64,000 bases of DNA from Fodinicurvata sp. EGI_FJ10296 (lineage in GTDB: Bacteria; Pseudomonadota; Alphaproteobacteria; DSM-16000; Inquilinaceae), in contig NZ_JBFCVL010000006.1 of NCBI RefSeq assembly GCF_040712075.1, forward strand, positions 248,001-312,000, given 5' to 3'. Shown piece after piece: positions 12,464-21,190 of the stretch. The position numbers and the translations under genes are program-made. How positions within the stretch are numbered: position 1 is the first letter of the stretch; every line of letters starts with the position of its first letter. The notes below the pieces were generated by a model that was not told the origin of the DNA, did no database searches, and saw only the letters and a list, made by a program, of their open reading frames with translations.

Positions 12464-12747
12464 AGATTTTCAATCATTTGACTTTTAGGTTACGGACTGC
12501 GTTCCGGTTCAATGAACCTGAACGTGGTTCGGCGGACTTATCCGGTGTGCCCGTCAACCGGTGCACGCCGTGTTCGCGCCAGCCGGGCAGATGCGGCGAC
12601 CGCCAACGCCTGGTCACGGGTTATCGACACCCCGTGTGATGCGTCTTGCCTCAAAGCCGCGATTTCATTAACATTTACCCGCTTTGGTTTCGGTCAGGTA
12701 TCGGGTTACAGCGCCATGCTTGCTTTTCGCGATACCAGCGAGCTTTC
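12464..12747. other. tRNA to nucleotidyltransferase intergenic region
   Basis: No gene is supported in these 284 bases. A 13-bp palindrome GGTTCAATGAACC lies at 12506-12518. An AT-richer patch around 12662-12680 (CATTAACATTTACC) could hold the promoter of the following nucleotidyltransferase-ABC pair, but no clear -35/-10 match is seen. The frame of the next gene stays open to a TTG at 12646, which I do not take as the start. No repeat of the tRNA 3' end was noticed further downstream, so a tRNA-integrated island is not shown. Confidence 0.4.
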
Positions 12748-13986
12748 ATGACCCAGGCGTCTGCTCTCGCCCTGATCCATCCGGTTCTCCTGCCCTCCGA
12801 GGTGCGACTTCTGCTTTTGCTGTCGCGCCCCGCCCTGTCGGCCGCGCAGCAGGAACGCGCGCGCGTGCTTGTTCGGCAGGTTGTTGATTGGCAGGCACTC
12901 GTCGACACCGCATGGCGCAAATACGTCCTGCCCCTGGTCTACCAGAACCTTGCCGCGCTGGGGCGTGGCGCGCCTACCGACGACGTATTGGCGATCATGC
13001 GCCCCCTTGCTCTGCTCGGGACGTCGGGAATGCTCCGCTGGCACGCGGCCTTCGACTGGTTCCACGAACGCTGCGTCCTCGCATCGGGCGTGCCCTATGC
13101 ATATTTGAAGGGCCGCGCCCTGGCGGCCCGTTTCTATCCGGACCCGGCACTGCGAATGTTCCGGGATGTCGACATTCTGGTGCCGCCCGATCGCCTGCCC
13201 GAGATGCTGCTTTGCGCGATCAATCAGGGCTGCACAGTCTTTCTGAAAGACGAACCGGACACTGAATTTGACTTGAGCACCGAGGATAAGCTCGCAGAGT
13301 TCGTGTATATGAACCCGGTCCCGAGCGTGCTGATGCCGCAGGGATTACTGGTGGAAATCCATGGAGAGATCGACCAGCACACGAAGCTGTTCCGCACCGA
13401 CGATCTTCTGCGCGATGCACAGGAAACGGCGACCCGGAACCACCGCATCAAGGTGTTGCCGGATGCCCCGCATATTACCTTCATCTGCTATCACCACACA
13501 CGCCACTTGTGGAGCAAGCTCAACTGGCTCGCCGATCTCGACGCGATCTGTGCGCATCCCGAATTCGACCGGGGCGCGGTTCTGGACTATGCGCGCGCCG
13601 TAAAGCTCGACACCACGGTCGCCGCGACGCTCGAATTCCACGAACTGGCATCGAACGCGCTTCACCCGGCCGATCTCGATCGCGCGACGCCCGGCGGCGA
13701 TCTGCTGCGCGCCTGCGTCGACGGCCTTGCCGGCGATGACGAACTCGAGGCGCAGATGCGTCAGGGACAAGTCCTGAATGCCTTCTCCTTCGAATGGCAG
13801 AGAATGCCGGTGTCGCGCTGGCGCTTCCTGCAATTGACGTTGTTGAAGAAGTTCAGGCCGAGTTACGCGGATTTCCGCGCCTTGCCAGGGGGGTTCAGGC
13901 TGCGTCGACTACGCTATGCGCTGGCGACCGGTTACCGGATTCCCCGCTACGCTATTCAACGGCTGCAACGGGCTCGACGGCAATGA
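12748..13986 (+). CDS. Nucleotidyltransferase family protein (NTP_transf_5-like) of lasso cluster
   Basis: A 412-aa soluble protein. The segment 'YAYLKGRALAARFYPDPALR' followed by 'RDVDILVP' (about residues 124-145) is the hallmark of the uncharacterised nucleotidyltransferase family PF14907, with the DxD likely binding metal. Such proteins recur beside PqqD-like and HPr-kinase-like genes in RiPP clusters, including the paeninodin-type lasso peptide clusters; their reaction is not established. ATG 12748 was preferred over an in-frame TTG at 12646. Its stop overlaps the ATG of the ABC exporter gene (ATGA), so the two are translationally coupled. Candidate tailoring enzyme that transfers a nucleotidyl or related group. 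Confidence 0.8.
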   Translation: MTQASALALIHPVLLPSEVRLLLLLSRPALSAAQQERARVLVRQVVDWQALVDTAWRKYVLPLVYQNLAALGRGAPTDDVLAIMRPLALLGTSGMLRWHAAFDWFHERCVLASGVPYAYLKGRALAARFYPDPALRMFRDVDILVPPDRLPEMLLCAINQGCTVFLKDEPDTEFDLSTEDKLAEFVYMNPVPSVLMPQGLLVEIHGEIDQHTKLFRTDDLLRDAQETATRNHRIKVLPDAPHITFICYHHTRHLWSKLNWLADLDAICAHPEFDRGAVLDYARAVKLDTTVAATLEFHELASNALHPADLDRATPGGDLLRACVDGLAGDDELEAQMRQGQVLNAFSFEWQRMPVSRWRFLQLTLLKKFRPSYADFRALPGGFRLRRLRYALATGYRIPRYAIQRLQRARRQ

Positions 13987-15803
13987 CCCTCACTGCCCGA
14001 GCGCGCCAGAGCCTGAGCCTGTGGCGCAAGCTTTACGACCTCTTGCGTTTCAGCAGCCGTGGCCTGAGCCTCGTCGTGGCCGTCCTGTTAGTTGCCGAGG
14101 CGGTCTTCGGGATCGCGCTGCTCTATTTCGTCAAGCTGCTGGTCGATGTCGTCTCCGAGCAACTCGGGGAGGGGGGCAGCATCGCGAATCCGGCGCAGAT
14201 ATTCCTGTATCTCGGGTTGATCGGCCTGATGATGGTGCTGGCCGTCGCCTTTCAGCGCCTCGGCGACTATGCGGGTCAGCGGCAAGGCATGGAGGTTGCG
14301 GACTACGTCGACCGCTTGATCCACGAACGCGCCATCCAGGTAGACCTATCGTTCTACGAAAATCCGCAATACTACGACTCACTGCAGCGCGCCCGTGCGG
14401 CCGGAAGCCAGCGGCCGGCGATGGTCATCACCACCCTTTCGCAGCTTCTCCGCAGTGTGCTCTTTCTCGTAGCAATTCTCGTCCTGATGGCGGCGCTGGA
14501 CTGGCGGCTGGTCCCGATTATTGTGGTAAGCATGGCGGCGGCCCTGGTGGTGCGGATGCATTTCACGCGTCTGCTCCATCTGTGGCGGCATCGCCGTGCG
14601 CAGATGGAACGCCGCGCCGAGTATCTGGACTGGCTGCTGACGTCGGCCGAACACGCCAAGGAACTGCGTATAGGCCGGCTCGGGGGCGAGCTGCGCGACC
14701 GCTACAGTCGCCTGCGCCGCCAGATCCGTTCGGAACAGCTATCCATCGAAAAGCGCAAAATGGTGGCCGAGGTCGGCGCTGCGGCGGCTGCGGCGCTGGT
14801 CTTCTTCGGTGCCACGACATGGCTGGTGTTGCGCGTGATCGAAGGAACGACAGGGCTGGGCGATCTTGTGCTTTTCCTGCTGCTTTTCCGGCGCGCCGAA
14901 GCCAGCGGACGCGAATTTGTCACGGCATTGTCGGGGACCTACGACCACCAGCTCTACCTGTCGCATCTTTTCAGTTTCTTCGAGGTCAGCCCCGAAATCA
15001 CGACGCCGGCACAGCCGGCGCTGCTACCGCACCCAATTCGCCAAGGTATACGCTTTCACGGGGTCACCTTCACTTATCCGGCCACCGAGACCCCCGCCCT
15101 TTCCAGCGTGGATTTCGAACTGCAGGCGGGAAAGATCACGGCCATCGTCGGCGAGAACGGCTCGGGAAAGACCTCGCTGATCAAGCTGCTCTGCCGCCTC
15201 TATGATCCCACCGAGGGCAGCATAACGCTGGATGGCGTCGATATCCGCGAGTTCGATCCGGTCGAATACCGGCGGATATTCAGCGTCATCTTCCAGGATT
15301 ACGCACGCTACGCCGAAACGGTCGGTGAAAATATTCGCTTCGGTGATATCACCGTCGAAGGTGGCGATCCGAGAATAGCGCACGCCGCCGATCTGGGCGG
15401 GGGCAGCGACTTCATCCGGCGGCTTCCGAAAGGGCTGGAAACTCCGTTGACCAAACTCTTCGACGACGGTCACGAACTCAGTCTCGGGCAATGGCAACGC
15501 GTCGCGCTGTCGCGGGCGTTCTTCCCGCATTCCGAATTCATCATCATGGACGAACCCACCAGCGCCGTCGACCCGCGTGCCGAAGCCGAGCTTTTCGACA
15601 ATTTTCGCGCCAGGCTGGAAGGCCGGGGGGCGCTGATCATCTCGCACCGGCTGTCCACCATTCGCATGGCCGACACCATCTACATGCTCAGTGATGGCAA
15701 GGTCCTGGAGCACGGCACCCACGAGGCCCTGGTCGCCCGGCAGGGCCGTTATGCGCAACTCTTCGAGCGACAGGCCCGGCCGTTCCGCTCTGCGAACCCT
15801 TAA
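13983..15803 (+). CDS. Lasso peptide ABC exporter (McjD-type, fused TMD-NBD)
   Basis: A 606-aa half-transporter that should dimerise in the inner membrane and export the mature peptide, which also gives producer immunity in known systems. The N-terminal ~310 residues form the six-helix exporter domain. The nucleotide-binding domain has Walker A 'GENGSGKTS' (about 390), the Q-loop 'IFQDYARYA', signature 'LSLGQWQRV' (about 499), Walker B 'FIIMDEPTSAVD' (about 515-526) and the H-loop 'IISHRLSTI'. ATG 13983 overlaps the end of the nucleotidyltransferase gene; an in-frame open stretch upstream is inside that gene. It converges on the cyclase gene with a 23-base gap. Confidence 0.9.
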   Translation: MTLTARARQSLSLWRKLYDLLRFSSRGLSLVVAVLLVAEAVFGIALLYFVKLLVDVVSEQLGEGGSIANPAQIFLYLGLIGLMMVLAVAFQRLGDYAGQRQGMEVADYVDRLIHERAIQVDLSFYENPQYYDSLQRARAAGSQRPAMVITTLSQLLRSVLFLVAILVLMAALDWRLVPIIVVSMAAALVVRMHFTRLLHLWRHRRAQMERRAEYLDWLLTSAEHAKELRIGRLGGELRDRYSRLRRQIRSEQLSIEKRKMVAEVGAAAAAALVFFGATTWLVLRVIEGTTGLGDLVLFLLLFRRAEASGREFVTALSGTYDHQLYLSHLFSFFEVSPEITTPAQPALLPHPIRQGIRFHGVTFTYPATETPALSSVDFELQAGKITAIVGENGSGKTSLIKLLCRLYDPTEGSITLDGVDIREFDPVEYRRIFSVIFQDYARYAETVGENIRFGDITVEGGDPRIAHAADLGGGSDFIRRLPKGLETPLTKLFDDGHELSLGQWQRVALSRAFFPHSEFIIMDEPTSAVDPRAEAELFDNFRARLEGRGALIISHRLSTIRMADTIYMLSDGKVLEHGTHEALVARQGRYAQLFERQARPFRSANP

Positions 15804-15826: not shown

Positions 15827-17713
15827 TCAGGTCCAATACCGGCGCAGCCAGACTTCGAGGCAAAGAATCTCCCATAGACCCGTCGTGCTCCCGCCGCGGG
15901 AGGCCGCTTCATACAGGGCTTGCAGCTTGGCGTCGTCGACAAAGCCGCGGGCAGCGACCTGAGAGTCGGTGATCAGATGGGTGATCGTGTCGCGCGCTCC
16001 GATCTGCAGGGCGTATTGCGAAAGCGGACCCAGCGACACCTTGTCCAGCTTCTGCCTTGCGTCTTCCGGCATCATGCCTTTCATGGCGTCCCGGGCCAAG
16101 CGCTTGTAACCGCTCGGTCGGTTCAGTTCTTCCTGCGGAATGGCCAGCACGAATTCAACAAGGCGTCGATCGCTCCACGGATCGGCATGTAGCAGGCCGT
16201 GTCGCGCATGGTTGCGCTCGAAATCGACCATGGTGAAAGCATAAAGAGGATCGAAGATAGTCTGATAACGCCGGCGCACCGAGGCGTTTCGAACCGAGGT
16301 TGGTGCTTCCACGGATGCCAGTTGTTTCGCCAGACCGGCCCGCTCGGCGAATTCGGAGCGGAGCCAGTCCGGATATGGCGGCACCTTGGGTCGGCCGATC
16401 ATTCGATGCCAAAACCATCGCTGTATCGGTGCCTGGAGCCCGCTTGGTCCCCATGACATCAGCGCCGGCAAGAGCAAGTGCTTGGTGACCGATTTCGGGA
16501 ACCGACGCCATGTTCGGCGGTCGGGTTTCAGCACCATCGAAAGATCCTGCCACAGTCCTGCTGTCAAGAAGCTTAGGGCATCGTAGTATACCCCCACCAG
16601 GAGATCACCACGGAAACCGGTGATCATCGTCGCGACGCCATCTGCGCGCGCGCGAGAAAGCACGCGATCATTAAGTGGGCGAAATATCAATGTCGTGGGC
16701 GCGTCTGGTGTTGGCCCGTTTTCGGGGTGGTCCGCAAGCGGAAATGCATCATCAGCCGGAACGTTGGTCGCGGGGAGGCGATAGCGATCAGTAATCAGGC
16801 GACTGACGTGACGCTCGTCACATTGCGCCAGACGCTCGAACGCATGGGAATAAGTGCGGAATTCACCAAGGCCCGCCGGATCATTCTCCAGTAGCCAGCC
16901 GGCCGTTGCCGCGACTGAGCCGGAATCCACGCCCCCGCTCAGCATCAAGCCAACAGGACGGTCACCACGCAGCCGGCAGCAGACCGCCTCCTTGAAAAGC
17001 TCGCGGAAGTGATCGGTGTATTCGCTGGCGTTGCGATAGCGGATCCGGCGGCCGGCCTCGACGTCCCAGTATCGCCAGACCCGCGTTCGTCCCTGCTGGA
17101 TCGTTAGGGCATGGCCCGGGGGCAACTGCGCGATACCGCGATAGAAGGTCCGATCCAGCGCCACCGGCTGGGCGGTCAAATGCGCTGCGACCATAAGTTC
17201 GTCAAGCTCGGCTGGAACGCCCCGGACGGCAAGGATCTGGGCGATTTCGCTCGCAAAAATCAATTGGTGATCGGTCAGCCGGTAATAGAGCGGGCGCGAT
17301 GACATCGGATCTCGCGCCAGAAGCAGGCGTCGCTCGGTGCGATCCCAGATGCCAAAGGCGAAATCGCCGATCAGATGGTCGACGCAGGCGCGCCCCCAGC
17401 GGCGATAGGCCGACAGGATGAGACGCGCACTGCCGGCAGCCTCTCCTCCGTCCACCGTCGATGCATTCAGCAGGTCCTGGCGATTGTCGATCCGCGCATC
17501 GGCGGCAATAACCAGCCCGCCTTCCACTAGTGGCTGGGGGGCCCGGTCCTCTGGCGTGACATGAAGCGCCAAATGACCGAGAGCGACACTGTCTCCGACC
17601 CAGTTTCCGGCGCCGTCGGGGCCGCGATGCGATCCGGCATCGAGCATGGCCTGCAGCGAGGTCCGGTTGGCCGGTCCGCCTTGAAGGTTGAGGATTCCGC
17701 AGACTCCACTCAC
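15827..17713 (-). CDS. Lasso peptide cyclase, asparagine synthetase-like (protein C)
   Basis: A 628-aa asparagine-synthetase homologue. In lasso peptide biosynthesis this protein adenylates the side-chain carboxylate of Asp/Glu and closes the macrolactam with the core N-terminus. The N-terminal Ntn-like domain begins MSGVCGILNL with the Cys at position 5 rather than directly after Met; this shift would block the usual processed Cys nucleophile and fits loss of glutaminase activity. The ATP-pyrophosphatase motif SGGVDS lies at residues 259-264. Its start overlaps the stop of the B2 gene by four bases (ATGA), and it is third in the B1-B2-C minus-strand operon. Confidence 0.9.
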   Translation of the reverse strand: MSGVCGILNLQGGPANRTSLQAMLDAGSHRGPDGAGNWVGDSVALGHLALHVTPEDRAPQPLVEGGLVIAADARIDNRQDLLNASTVDGGEAAGSARLILSAYRRWGRACVDHLIGDFAFGIWDRTERRLLLARDPMSSRPLYYRLTDHQLIFASEIAQILAVRGVPAELDELMVAAHLTAQPVALDRTFYRGIAQLPPGHALTIQQGRTRVWRYWDVEAGRRIRYRNASEYTDHFRELFKEAVCCRLRGDRPVGLMLSGGVDSGSVAATAGWLLENDPAGLGEFRTYSHAFERLAQCDERHVSRLITDRYRLPATNVPADDAFPLADHPENGPTPDAPTTLIFRPLNDRVLSRARADGVATMITGFRGDLLVGVYYDALSFLTAGLWQDLSMVLKPDRRTWRRFPKSVTKHLLLPALMSWGPSGLQAPIQRWFWHRMIGRPKVPPYPDWLRSEFAERAGLAKQLASVEAPTSVRNASVRRRYQTIFDPLYAFTMVDFERNHARHGLLHADPWSDRRLVEFVLAIPQEELNRPSGYKRLARDAMKGMMPEDARQKLDKVSLGPLSQYALQIGARDTITHLITDSQVAARGFVDDAKLQALYEAASRGGSTTGLWEILCLEVWLRRYWT

Positions 17714-18267
17714 CGGGGAACGTGTCGTCCGAGATATCGCTCCAGCGAGGGCATCGGTGTGAACCGCGCCATGTCCGGAAGTTCGCCCACCACGACTTCG
17801 CCCCGATGCTCAATCCAGGCATGTGCCTCGAAGCCACGCTCAGGGTCCTGACGGATCCCGATCCGCACCTCGCTCTCATGGCCCGCGCGGCCAAGCATAA
17901 TCTGGCTGGCCAAGGCTTGGGGAAGGCAGTTGGCCTTGGGGATCACACGGCCTGCACGCTGGACCGCCTGCGCCAGGTCGTGAACCCCCGGCCCGTCAGC
18001 GCGGGACAGACCACGCCGATCCCGCGCCCGACAGGTCAGCCGCAACGCGGTTTTTAGCGGCACGAGCCACAGGGCGATGCGCACGGCCGCCAGGATCGGC
18101 ACCGCACGCAGAAACAGCCGGCGCTCATTTGCCGGAGAGCGCAGAAAGCGCAAGATCCTTTGTTGCCACGAAGATGCTGCCCGGTTCATGCGACGTCCCG
18201 TACGTGTGCTTGCACCGCCTGGGGTGAGCCGACGGTCCAGCTCGTGCTTGTCTCCGGCCATCCGCAT
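17710..18267 (-). CDS. Lasso peptide leader protease (B2, transglutaminase-like)
   Basis: A 185-aa protein of the McjB C-terminal/B2 family, a transglutaminase-fold cysteine protease that cuts the leader from the precursor. The probable triad is Cys114 in 'KANCLPQALA', His149 in 'FEAHAWIE' and Asp165 (or Glu162) in 'VVVGELPDM'. The annotated ATG lies one base after the B1 stop; a Met at codon 27 (MNRAASSWQQ) is an alternative that fits the usual shorter N-terminus. It needs the separate RRE protein B1 for substrate binding, which is the gene immediately upstream. Four-base overlap with the cyclase gene. Confidence 0.9.
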   Translation of the reverse strand: MRMAGDKHELDRRLTPGGASTRTGRRMNRAASSWQQRILRFLRSPANERRLFLRAVPILAAVRIALWLVPLKTALRLTCRARDRRGLSRADGPGVHDLAQAVQRAGRVIPKANCLPQALASQIMLGRAGHESEVRIGIRQDPERGFEAHAWIEHRGEVVVGELPDMARFTPMPSLERYLGRHVPR

Positions 18268-18268
18268 T

Positions 18269-18550
18269 TCAGCGCACCGTGATCAGTCGTGCGCGCGCCA
18301 TGTCTTGCAGAAGCGAGACGATGTCGGCTTCGCAGCGCTCGGCGTCGACGTCATGGGTCGAGGTGATATTATCGACGATCTCGTTGACCGTCGTGGGCTT
18401 CTGAATCAGCCCCCAGACCTCGGTTCCCAGTTCATTCAGGTTGTAGTAGCGGTCAGTCTCAACCTGTAAGATTACAAGCCCTTCGGCCAGCGGCGCCGCC
18501 AGCGGCTCCGGCTTTGCTTCAACAACCGATCGGACCGTAATTGCATCCAT
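18269..18550 (-). CDS. PqqD-like RiPP recognition element (lasso protein B1)
   Basis: A 93-aa PqqD-family protein. The wing and helices are visible: 'LVILQVETDRYYNLNELGTEVWGLIQKPTTVNEIV' followed by 'ADIVSLLQDMARARLI'. Standalone proteins of this kind bind the YxxP region of the lasso leader and deliver it to B2. It is the first gene of the minus-strand operon, divergent from the precursor gene 233 bases away. The ATG at 18550 has only a weak AAAGAT upstream. Confidence 0.9.
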   Translation of the reverse strand: MDAITVRSVVEAKPEPLAAPLAEGLVILQVETDRYYNLNELGTEVWGLIQKPTTVNEIVDNITSTHDVDAERCEADIVSLLQDMARARLITVR

Positions 18551-18783: not shown

Positions 18784-18939
18784 ATGAACCCACCTAAAAA
18801 GCCATATCACCGTCCCGTCCTTGAAGATCTTGGGACAGCGAAGGAACTGACTCGAGTCGGTCTTACGAACCCTGGCTCGGATACGGTACGTGGTCGGCCT
18901 ATGGGTGGTTCAGTCATGCTGCCGGGTCCGGCACGTTGA
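18784..18939 (+). CDS. Lasso peptide precursor (protein A), 51 aa
   Basis: This small gene opens at ATG 18784 with GAGGG eight bases before it. The leader fits the lasso consensus YxxPxLxxxGx5Tx exactly: Tyr8, Pro11, Leu13, Gly17, Thr23. With Thr at -2 the core would begin at Val25; if it begins at the usual Gly, it starts at Gly26 with GLTNPGSD. The only acidic residue after the leader is Asp33, position 9 or 8 respectively, so it must be the ring acceptor if this is a lasso peptide. The tail is Gly/Pro/Met-rich with Arg36, Arg38 and a terminal Arg51 (ending PGPAR). Followed after 30 bases by the PRTase-RRE fusion gene. Confidence 0.88.
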   Translation: MNPPKKPYHRPVLEDLGTAKELTRVGLTNPGSDTVRGRPMGGSVMLPGPAR

Positions 18940-18969: not shown

Positions 18970-20172
18970 ATGAAGGCAGGCAGATTTGTTTTCCTGGCTG
19001 GTTCATGTGATCATGTCCCGCCAGGAACAGAAAGAGTCAGCTTCGATAATTTTTTAAGCGCGCGAGACGCAGAGTCGATTGCCCGCGCGCTGGCGAGCAG
19101 CTCTGTCTGGCGTGAATTTCGCGAAGCGGTCCTCATTGTACGGACCGAACCGGAAGCACGCATCGCCGTAGCCGGGTACTTCGATGATTCGGATGAGGTG
19201 CGGCTGCAGTACCTGCTTCACCGCATCCAGGATGACCTGCCGAGGCTTCACCATGTCGGCTATGATCAGGCGCAAGCTGACTGCCTGCACCTGGCCTCTC
19301 TACTGCAGGCGCGTTTCGGAAGCGCTGCCCGGGATGAATTTCAGTATGCCGCGATTCCGCGAGGCGGGCACATCGTCCTTGGAATGCTGGCCTATGCTCT
19401 CGACCTGCCCGCCGAACGCTTTACGCTCCCCGACTCGGCCCCCAACTCGCCTCAGGTCCCGCTGGTCGTCGTCGATGACTGCGCCCTGAGCGGCGCCCGA
19501 TTCAAAGGCTTCTTGCCCAGGCTTGCAAGCGACAACATCATCTTCACACCACTTTATTCCCCACCGGCATTGCGCCGCGCGATCGTTGAGCGGGAGCCGC
19601 GCGTGCTGGATTGCCTGAGTGCAAATGACCTGGAGGACGAAGCGCCCGTCCGGCAAGGTGCAGGATATGCGGACTGGCTGGAATTCCAGCGGCAAAGAGG
19701 CGGCGATGGCGGCTACTGGTGCGGTCAGTACCCCCCCTTCGGCTTTGCCTGGAACGAACCGGATGTCGGATTCTGGAATCCGGTGACCAGCCGACGGGAG
19801 AAGCACTGGAATCTCCTGCCACCCGAGCTTTGCCTCAAGAACCGGATTGGCTGGGATCCCGATGCCGCGCGGATCCAGGTGAACAAGGACGACACGGGCC
19901 CCATCGTTGTCGGCAAGGGCGTGCTTTATGCCGATTTTGGCGACACCATTCTTGTCGGCGAGGCCAGTTCGGGGCGCACCCATGCACTCGATAATGTCGG
20001 GGCCGACATGTGGCGGGCCCTGGTGACAACCGGCGACACCAGACCCGCCCTTGCCGTCTTGCGCGCGGCTTATGATGTAGACGACGCCACCCTCGGCCGC
20101 GACCTCCAGGCCCTTGCCGAAACCCTGTTCGGCAAGGGGCTTCTGCAGCGGAGACAAGACGGTGACGATTGA
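18970..20172 (+). CDS. Phosphoribosyltransferase-like protein fused to PqqD-like RRE
   Basis: A 400-aa two-domain protein. Residues ~95-215 look like a type I phosphoribosyltransferase: 'AAIPRGGHIVLGMLAYAL' (PRGG at 130-133) and the PRPP-loop-like 'VVVDDCALSGARF' (166-178). Residues ~315-395 look like PqqD: 'HALDNVGADMWRALVTTGD' then 'LGRDLQALAETLFGKGLLQR'. I infer that the RRE brings the lasso precursor to a PRPP- or ribose-phosphate-dependent reaction; no such activity is proven. ATG 18970 is poorly placed relative to the SD AAGGAGAAGG (18941-18950), which better suits a GTG at 18957 in another frame that stops at 19010. Ends overlapping the kinase gene. Confidence 0.78.
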   Translation: MKAGRFVFLAGSCDHVPPGTERVSFDNFLSARDAESIARALASSSVWREFREAVLIVRTEPEARIAVAGYFDDSDEVRLQYLLHRIQDDLPRLHHVGYDQAQADCLHLASLLQARFGSAARDEFQYAAIPRGGHIVLGMLAYALDLPAERFTLPDSAPNSPQVPLVVVDDCALSGARFKGFLPRLASDNIIFTPLYSPPALRRAIVEREPRVLDCLSANDLEDEAPVRQGAGYADWLEFQRQRGGDGGYWCGQYPPFGFAWNEPDVGFWNPVTSRREKHWNLLPPELCLKNRIGWDPDAARIQVNKDDTGPIVVGKGVLYADFGDTILVGEASSGRTHALDNVGADMWRALVTTGDTRPALAVLRAAYDVDDATLGRDLQALAETLFGKGLLQRRQDGDD

Positions 20173-21190
20173 TCGAGGTTCAAGGGCGGTCGCGGCGCCG
20201 TCACTGCGACGCCATCGACTGTATGGCCTCACCATGGCGAGCGACTTTCCCTTCCGGAATCGCCTGTCGAAGGGCGATGGTGCGCCTGATCTTGTCTTCG
20301 CCCGCGTCCGCGAGGCGCCGGAGGACTTCGACCCCGATGCGCAGTTGCCGGTATATGTCAGTCCAATTCGTCCGGGTGACAGCGTGCCATTCTTTCGCAT
20401 CTATGTATTGCGTGCCGGCACCCCGGACGAGGTGCTGGTACTCAACTACCCGGAGTCGGCCGACCATTTTCTTTATCTTGACCGCATCGTCACGCATCGG
20501 CGCCATCCGACCTCCGACTACCTCGTCGAGATTCAACTGCTCGGCGACGTATTCTCGGTCTGGCTGGAACGCCGGGGGGTGATCGCGCTGCACGCCTCGG
20601 CGGTTGTGATCGGCGACGCCTGCATCGGGTTTCTGGCCAGCAACAAGGGCGGTAAGACGTCGCTCGCCGCCAGCCTGATGCAGACGGACTGCCCACTGCT
20701 GACCGACGACATCCTGCCGCTCGAAGCGACGGCCGGAGGCGTGGTAGGTCATCCCGGTTTCCCGCAAATGCGGATGTGGCCCGACGTAGCGGACCATTTC
20801 CTGGCCGACTGGAGCGATGCGGAAACAGTTCATCCGGCCTTCACCAAGCGCCGCATCGATGTCTGCCCACAGCGACTGGGAGCCTTTCACGATCGGGCGG
20901 TGCGTGTGGCGCGCCTTTTCGTGCCGGAAATGATTGCTGATGACAGCCAACAGGTCGAGATGGAGCGCCTGTCCACGCGCGAGGTCCTGGCGTATTTGCT
21001 GGGCAATTCCTTCGCTGTCGATTGGGTTGACGCATTGGGGTGGCAGAAACGGCGGCTGAATCTTCTCGCCCGAACAGCAACCACGGTTCCCGTCCTGCGT
21101 TTGCGCTATCCCCGCGGTATGGATCGGTTACCGGAGGTGCGGCAGGCGATCCTCGACAGTTGCACCCAGTCGGGCTGCGCGCACCGTTAG
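20162..21190 (+). CDS. HPr kinase-like protein of lasso cluster
   Basis: A 342-aa protein resembling the C-terminal catalytic domain of HPr kinase/phosphorylase. It has 'GVIALHASAVVIGD', the P-loop-like 'ASNKGGKTS' (159-167, Ala where the first P-loop Gly normally is) and 'CPLLTDDILPLEA' (Asp182/183). Homologues in paeninodin-type lasso clusters phosphorylate the C-terminal Ser of the precursor. Here the precursor ends in Arg, so the target must differ or the protein may have another role. GTG 20162, overlapping the previous stop by 11 bases and preceded by GGAG, is chosen as start; ATG at codon 25 (MASDFPFRNR) is an alternative. Confidence 0.82.
   Translation: MTIDRGSRAVAAPSLRRHRLYGLTMASDFPFRNRLSKGDGAPDLVFARVREAPEDFDPDAQLPVYVSPIRPGDSVPFFRIYVLRAGTPDEVLVLNYPESADHFLYLDRIVTHRRHPTSDYLVEIQLLGDVFSVWLERRGVIALHASAVVIGDACIGFLASNKGGKTSLAASLMQTDCPLLTDDILPLEATAGGVVGHPGFPQMRMWPDVADHFLADWSDAETVHPAFTKRRIDVCPQRLGAFHDRAVRVARLFVPEMIADDSQQVEMERLSTREVLAYLLGNSFAVDWVDALGWQKRRLNLLARTATTVPVLRLRYPRGMDRLPEVRQAILDSCTQSGCAHR

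Follow-up and report, generated by a model that had tools for sequence, protein, structure and literature searches.

The window, i.e. the whole analyzed stretch of 64,000 nucleotides from Fodinicurvata sp. EGI_FJ10296, contains a lasso peptide cluster in which a kinase gene directly follows a gene for a two-domain protein, here called PRTase-PqqD. The features of this cluster are as follows:

12646-13986, forward strand: NTP_transf_5 nucleotidyltransferase (PF14907), start uncertain
13794-15803, forward strand: ABC exporter, with the start as listed for the open reading frame; the real start is possibly later
15827-17713, reverse strand: lasso cyclase C, asparagine-synthase-like
17710-18267, reverse strand: B2 leader peptidase (NF033537, 2.6e-26)
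18269-18550, reverse strand: stand-alone B1 (PqqD/RRE; PqqD 2.3e-19)
18784-18939, forward strand: lasso precursor, 51 aa
18970-20172, forward strand: PRTase-PqqD, a predicted type I phosphoribosyltransferase (about residues 92-269) with a C-terminal PqqD/RRE domain (about 311-397)
20162-21190, forward strand: lasso precursor kinase of 342 aa with a predicted HPrK/PEPCK fold, starting at GTG, with His144, Lys165, Asp182, Asp183 and the P-loop A159-SNKGGKT

The precursor is thus surrounded by a full lasso set (ABC exporter, C, B2 and B1), and the genes A, B1, B2 and C by which an HPrK-type lasso kinase is recognized are all present. The GTG codon at 20162 lies 11 nt inside the 3' end of the PRTase-PqqD gene, i.e. 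the two genes overlap; this start is credible because relatives align from the same region. The original prediction dealt with kinase and precursor and made no mention of the adjoining PRTase-PqqD gene or of the nucleotidyltransferase. The latter would be of the PsmN/BsfN type, where PF14907 membership of PsmN and BsfN is deduced from their descriptions as nucleotidyltransferases alone. Relative loci are cited here by L numbers; L016 and L017 have a PF14907 nucleotidyltransferase 3' of the kinase, and PF14907-like genes occur in 11 of 25 PRTase loci (some of them incomplete at their ends). Hence the phosphate may also be elaborated further, in the way proposed for pseudomycoidin.

The predicted structure of the kinase (pLDDT 79, pTM 0.79) resembles both PEPCK (Z 13.6, rmsd 5.5, 263 aligned residues) and HprK/P (Z 11.4, rmsd 3.7, 136 aligned), and the catalytic His-Lys-Asp-Asp set is complete (H144, K165, D182, D183). 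The P-loop reads F-L-A159-S-N-K162-G-G-K165-T: as originally noted, Ala159 takes the place of the initial Gly; in addition, Lys162 stands where GxxGxGK has its middle Gly. The first P-loop Gly, G163 in the characterized kinase BsfK, is accordingly absent. The protein has no Pfam match, and its score of 13.5 bits against a curated cut-off of 200 places it outside HprK_rel_A (TIGR04352).

Four relatives with 38-43% identity were found in one scan of genome contigs, in MAGs of Nitrospirota, Gemmatimonadota and Rhodothermota, and all of them have Ala or Ser at P-loop position 1. In the alignment of these four with the window kinase, H144, K165, D182, D183 and G-G-K are invariant and GGK-[ST] is kept. 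The kinase family spans four phyla as one intact family, and in a tree of 63 kinases the 23 PRTase-linked members form one group (support 95/81); the division between PRTase-linked and C-terminal-Ser kinases requires a single change in 100% of the bootstrap trees. Within this clade, position 1 is Ala in 17 kinases, Ser in one and Gly in five, and the His-Lys-Asp-Asp set is kept in 23/23. Outside the clade, Ala occurs at this position only in L043 and L048 (the same gene as L025); the kinases of L006 and L023 have Gly. Since 18 of the 23 members carry Ala or Ser, the Ala P-loop is a clade trait: it is unusual against the whole HPrK-like superfamily but not within its own clade, which has evidently adapted to Ala, and judged by sequence the enzyme is not degenerate. 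The idea that the altered P-loop signals impairment is thus not borne out, and loss of function caused by Ala159 was rejected as an explanation. In BsfK, the exchange G163A at the matching position greatly lowered solubility, and G166A, at the middle Gly, left activity near wild type (PMC10368454; this paper and PMC9266682 are cited throughout from excerpts). Ala is therefore tolerated in the context of the window clade, not in every kinase. A plasmid search with the kinase returned nine records, none above 31% identity.

The C-terminal domain of the partner protein matches PqqD (PF05402, 4.7e-7), and its model superimposes closely on the lasso RRE TbiB1, its nearest solved relative (5v1u_A; Z 13.6, rmsd 1.4, 84 aligned). 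The preceding domain is modeled with a type I PRTase fold (HGXPRT: Z 13.1, rmsd 2.3, 125 aligned) and has both active-site motifs, a PRGG PPi loop and the PRPP motif VVVDDCALSGAR. The AF2 model of the whole protein is weak (pLDDT 61.7) and better in these two domains, which are the only parts used here; the N-terminal stretch of about 90 residues has no assigned fold, with pLDDT below 50 over most of its length, and is absent from the L014 version. PRGG and VDD-x3-[ST]-G-x-R, with IDD in some cases, are conserved in every locus that contains those stretches. Fold and active-site loops are shared with PRTase-CE (PF24390) and with type I purine PRTases (XGPRT, HGXPRT), but the window protein combines them with an RRE and belongs to a lasso cluster. 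PF24390 reaches only E 0.11 in it, so that Pfam alone misses the domain; in L066 and L047 (E 2.3e-5 and 4.2e-5) the match is slightly below the gathering score. In the preferred reading, the fused RRE would hold the leader, with the PRTase domain poised to use PRPP. In L072 (7968-9175) the PRTase-PqqD gene is broken across two frames, and the adjoining kinase is intact. A plasmid search with the PRTase-PqqD protein gave no match. A defence role for the pair was considered and rejected, as none of three proteins had a PADLOC match.

In the phylum sample, 2 of 398 genomes have a full PRTase-PqqD gene, and six other matches comprise PqqD only; in the class sample the gene occurs in 1 of 385 genomes, namely the window's own. 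Higher frequencies are seen in the family of genome G436 (8/121) and in one genus within that family (13/90). Kinase and PRTase-RRE genes are near each other in nearly all loci, in variable order (the kinase precedes the PRTase in L091-L095). Among 19 further loci found purely by the PRTase query (L066-L072, L085-L096), 17 contain a clade kinase; in L068 and L088 the retrieved DNA has the PRTase without a recognizable one. L068 (G502:C15:61000-79000) combines PRTase-PqqD with three precursors bearing a Gly-Ser tail, and no kinase is recognizable within 18 kb. Genomes G531 and G513 each hold two types: a PRTase-linked kinase with Gly-Ser-tail precursors (L067, L072) and a classical Gly P-loop kinase near Ser-ended precursors (L129, L132). 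L132 itself contains two kinases. In L016 (4126-5778), cyclase and precursor form one stop-free open frame 3' of a transposase-like ORF, which is either a genuine fusion or the result of damage to the MAG locus.

The window precursor (MNPPKKPYHRPVLEDLGTAKELTRVGLTNPGSDTVRGRPMGGSVMLPGPAR) scores 19.8 bits with the lasso leader model NF033521, above the cut-off of 19, and its leader has the pattern Y8xxP..L....T23-R24 with Thr23 at position -2. The predicted core is V25-R51 with D33 as ring acid. In agreement with the original reading, the translation of 18784-18939 ends in Arg51, not Ser, and its hydroxyl residues are internal (Ser32, Ser43, Thr18, Thr23, Thr28, Thr34). Two of these are candidate sites: Thr28 in the ring, five residues before D33, and Ser43 in the tail motif GGSV. 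With Arg51 at its end, the precursor falls outside the PadeK subclass, in which a C-terminal Ser is phosphorylated. The BsfK subclass is defined by Ile/Val at leader position -2 and a ring Ser/Thr at position 3; the window precursor differs by Thr23 at -2, and since Thr28 stands at an equivalent distance from the ring acid, it is partly similar to this subclass.

For comparison, 26 precursors of the clade were collected, namely 24 ORFs with the leader motif at most 160 nt from PRTase or kinase plus two more in L068; L015, L017 and L096 yielded none. None of the 26 ends in Ser, a count that leaves out other regex-matched ORFs, including one in L066 (178-387) that carries a leader and ends in Ser-Ser; it belongs to the same cluster, 6.6 kb away, and adjoins B1. 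Their C-termini are varied (R, F, N, T, G, E, P, V, L, A), and phosphorylation of the C-terminal Arg was rejected for this reason and for want of any support. A G-[S/T] pair occurs in the tail of all 26, C-terminal to the ring acid (as GGSV in the window; PGST, DGSV, NGSR etc. elsewhere), and the place of Ser43 is the sole hydroxyl position kept throughout. The motif is short, with a probability of 0.19-0.89 per precursor in shuffled tails, and the joint chance value of 10^-8.8 is optimistic because the precursors are related. Thirteen control precursors came from lasso-leader searches and L048, some of them from kinase-less clusters (L126 and L130 gave none). The tail motif is present in 6/13 of these versus 26/26 in the clade (Fisher p 1e-4), and six of the 13 end in Ser; these Ser-ended controls (L120, L122, L129, L131 twice, L132) belong to loci with a Gly P-loop kinase. 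Among the lasso-leader loci, L123, L126 and L127 contain HPrK-like proteins without the simple H..DD spacing, and the precursors of L123 and L127 have no terminal Ser.

One of the closest known systems is the bsf cluster of Bradymonas sediminis (PMC10368454). Its HPrK-like kinase is likewise accompanied by B1, B2 and C, by a transporter and by a nucleotidyltransferase, the last as a prediction, and BsfK shares the His-Lys-Asp-Asp set with the P-loop Lys, assistance by B1/RRE and a precursor without terminal Ser, which ends in Asp. The differences are the P-loop Gly of BsfK, an identity of 23% over 191 columns, Ile at leader position -2 in place of the window's Thr, and a gene list that, as given in that paper, includes no PRTase-RRE. 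BsfK was reported in 2023 to phosphorylate the internal ring residue Ser3, assisted by B1, so the premise of the original prediction that characterized kinases of this family use the C-terminal Ser no longer holds in general. PadeK (paeninodin), ThcoK and SyanK are also lasso precursor kinases with the His-Lys-Asp-Asp motif, but they phosphorylate the C-terminal Ser, no PRTase partner is described for them in the excerpts of PMC9266682, and none of the precursors counted beside the window's type of gene pair ends in Ser. PsmK and PsmN of pseudomycoidin similarly combine kinase and nucleotidyltransferase in a lasso cluster; their substrate has a C-terminal Ser, and the same excerpts describe no PRTase-RRE. 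The further suggestion of a new site or a new substrate stands in part: the C-terminus is unlikely as the site, the substrates form a different set from those of PadeK, ThcoK and SyanK, and the notion of a new substrate is sharpened by the PRTase-RRE partner.

We consider it rather likely that the window encodes an active lasso kinase which acts on an internal core hydroxyl, with Ser43 as first and Thr28 as second candidate, and which works together with PRTase-PqqD. Judging from its conserved residues, the kinase is probably active. The chances for Ser43 itself are about even. Against this reading stand the Ser-Ser-ended ORF of L066, the lack of a recognizable kinase in the retrieved DNA of L068 and L088, and the solubility loss of BsfK G163A. 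According to this model, the RREs (B1 and the PqqD domain of the fusion) would hold the YxxPxL leader, the kinase would phosphorylate the internal hydroxyl while the leader is still attached, in the manner of BsfK with B1, and the PRTase would use PRPP on the same peptide, possibly transferring phosphoribose. A tentative extension is that the RRE-tethered PRTase then adds phosphoribose from PRPP to the phosphorylated Ser/Thr, perhaps at its new phosphate group, comparable to PsmN, which has been linked to a hexose on phosphate in pseudomycoidin (PMC9266682). Searches of the open-licence literature found no PRPP-driven peptide phosphoribosylation in RiPPs and no relevant paper on a PRTase in a lasso or RRE context. 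To our knowledge, such a modification has not been recorded from any RiPP. The pairing of kinase and PRTase-RRE was likewise found nowhere in that literature, including the excerpts of PMC11705953, PMC11596576 and PMC13352647. In the excerpted main text of a 2025 RRE survey (PMC12710340), no word begins with 'transferase' or 'kinase', and this survey is absent from the open-licence matches for phosphoribosyl and lasso peptide.

What is more challenging is the choice between Ser43 and the ring. The kinase might act on Thr28 as BsfK does on Ser3, leaving the tail Gly-Ser for PRTase action, export or folding. BsfK is the only characterized kinase in PMC9266682 and PMC10368454, as excerpted, whose precursor lacks a terminal Ser; in its substrate BsfA, Ser3 stands five residues before the ring acid D8, the same spacing as from Thr28 to D33, and LvtA has Thr3 at the place of Ser3 (PMC10368454). 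Ser or Thr occupies the Thr28 place in 22 of the 26 precursors. A G-S-T likewise follows the ring acid in the tail of BsfA, whose S10A and T11A variants are still phosphorylated (PMC10368454); a tail Gly-Ser alone therefore does not mark the site. On the other hand, the hydroxyl is missing in L014 and in three short precursors (L068 5899, L069 6237, L072 7734), which have few or no ring hydroxyls and still carry PGS[TV]; the kinase follows this precursor after 40 nt in L069 and after 4 nt in L072. Together with the low identity between the window kinase and BsfK, this makes the ring site somewhat unlikely. An inactive, degenerate kinase, for which the replaced P-loop residues and the poor profile matches could be cited, is very improbable given an intact family in four phyla with invariant catalytic residues, GGK-[ST] in all five aligned sequences, and the dispensability of the middle Gly in BsfK.

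Two other explanations concern the partner. The PRTase domain could be a PyrR-like nucleotide or PRPP sensor that gates precursor delivery. The usual PRPP motif ends in T-G-x-T. The window motif ends in S-G-x-R, and the fold comparison also matched PyrR structures (Z ~10.5). The conservation of PRGG and the PRPP motif and the fusion to an RRE, usually the mark of a peptide-modifying enzyme, argue against a sensor, which we regard as doubtful and less likely than a transferase. Alternatively, the kinase could act on a sugar or phosphate group that the PRTase or the nucleotidyltransferase has attached, building (poly)phosphate on peptide-bound phosphoribose. ThcoK and SyanK do put phosphate on phosphate (PMC9266682), and the proximity of the paired genes and the nucleotidyltransferases in many PRTase loci are consistent with such a scheme. 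However, characterized lasso kinases use linear unmodified precursors and the gene order is variable; we consider this explanation quite unlikely.

In place of an odd kinase with a missing Ser, the preferred reading of an internal-site kinase working with PRTase-PqqD describes a recognizable subclass of lasso clusters in four phyla, with two named candidate residues, Ser43 and Thr28. Through the RRE-fused PRTase, PRPP could become a new donor in the modification of peptides, and the two relatives' genomes that hold both kinase types represent a natural comparison of site choice.
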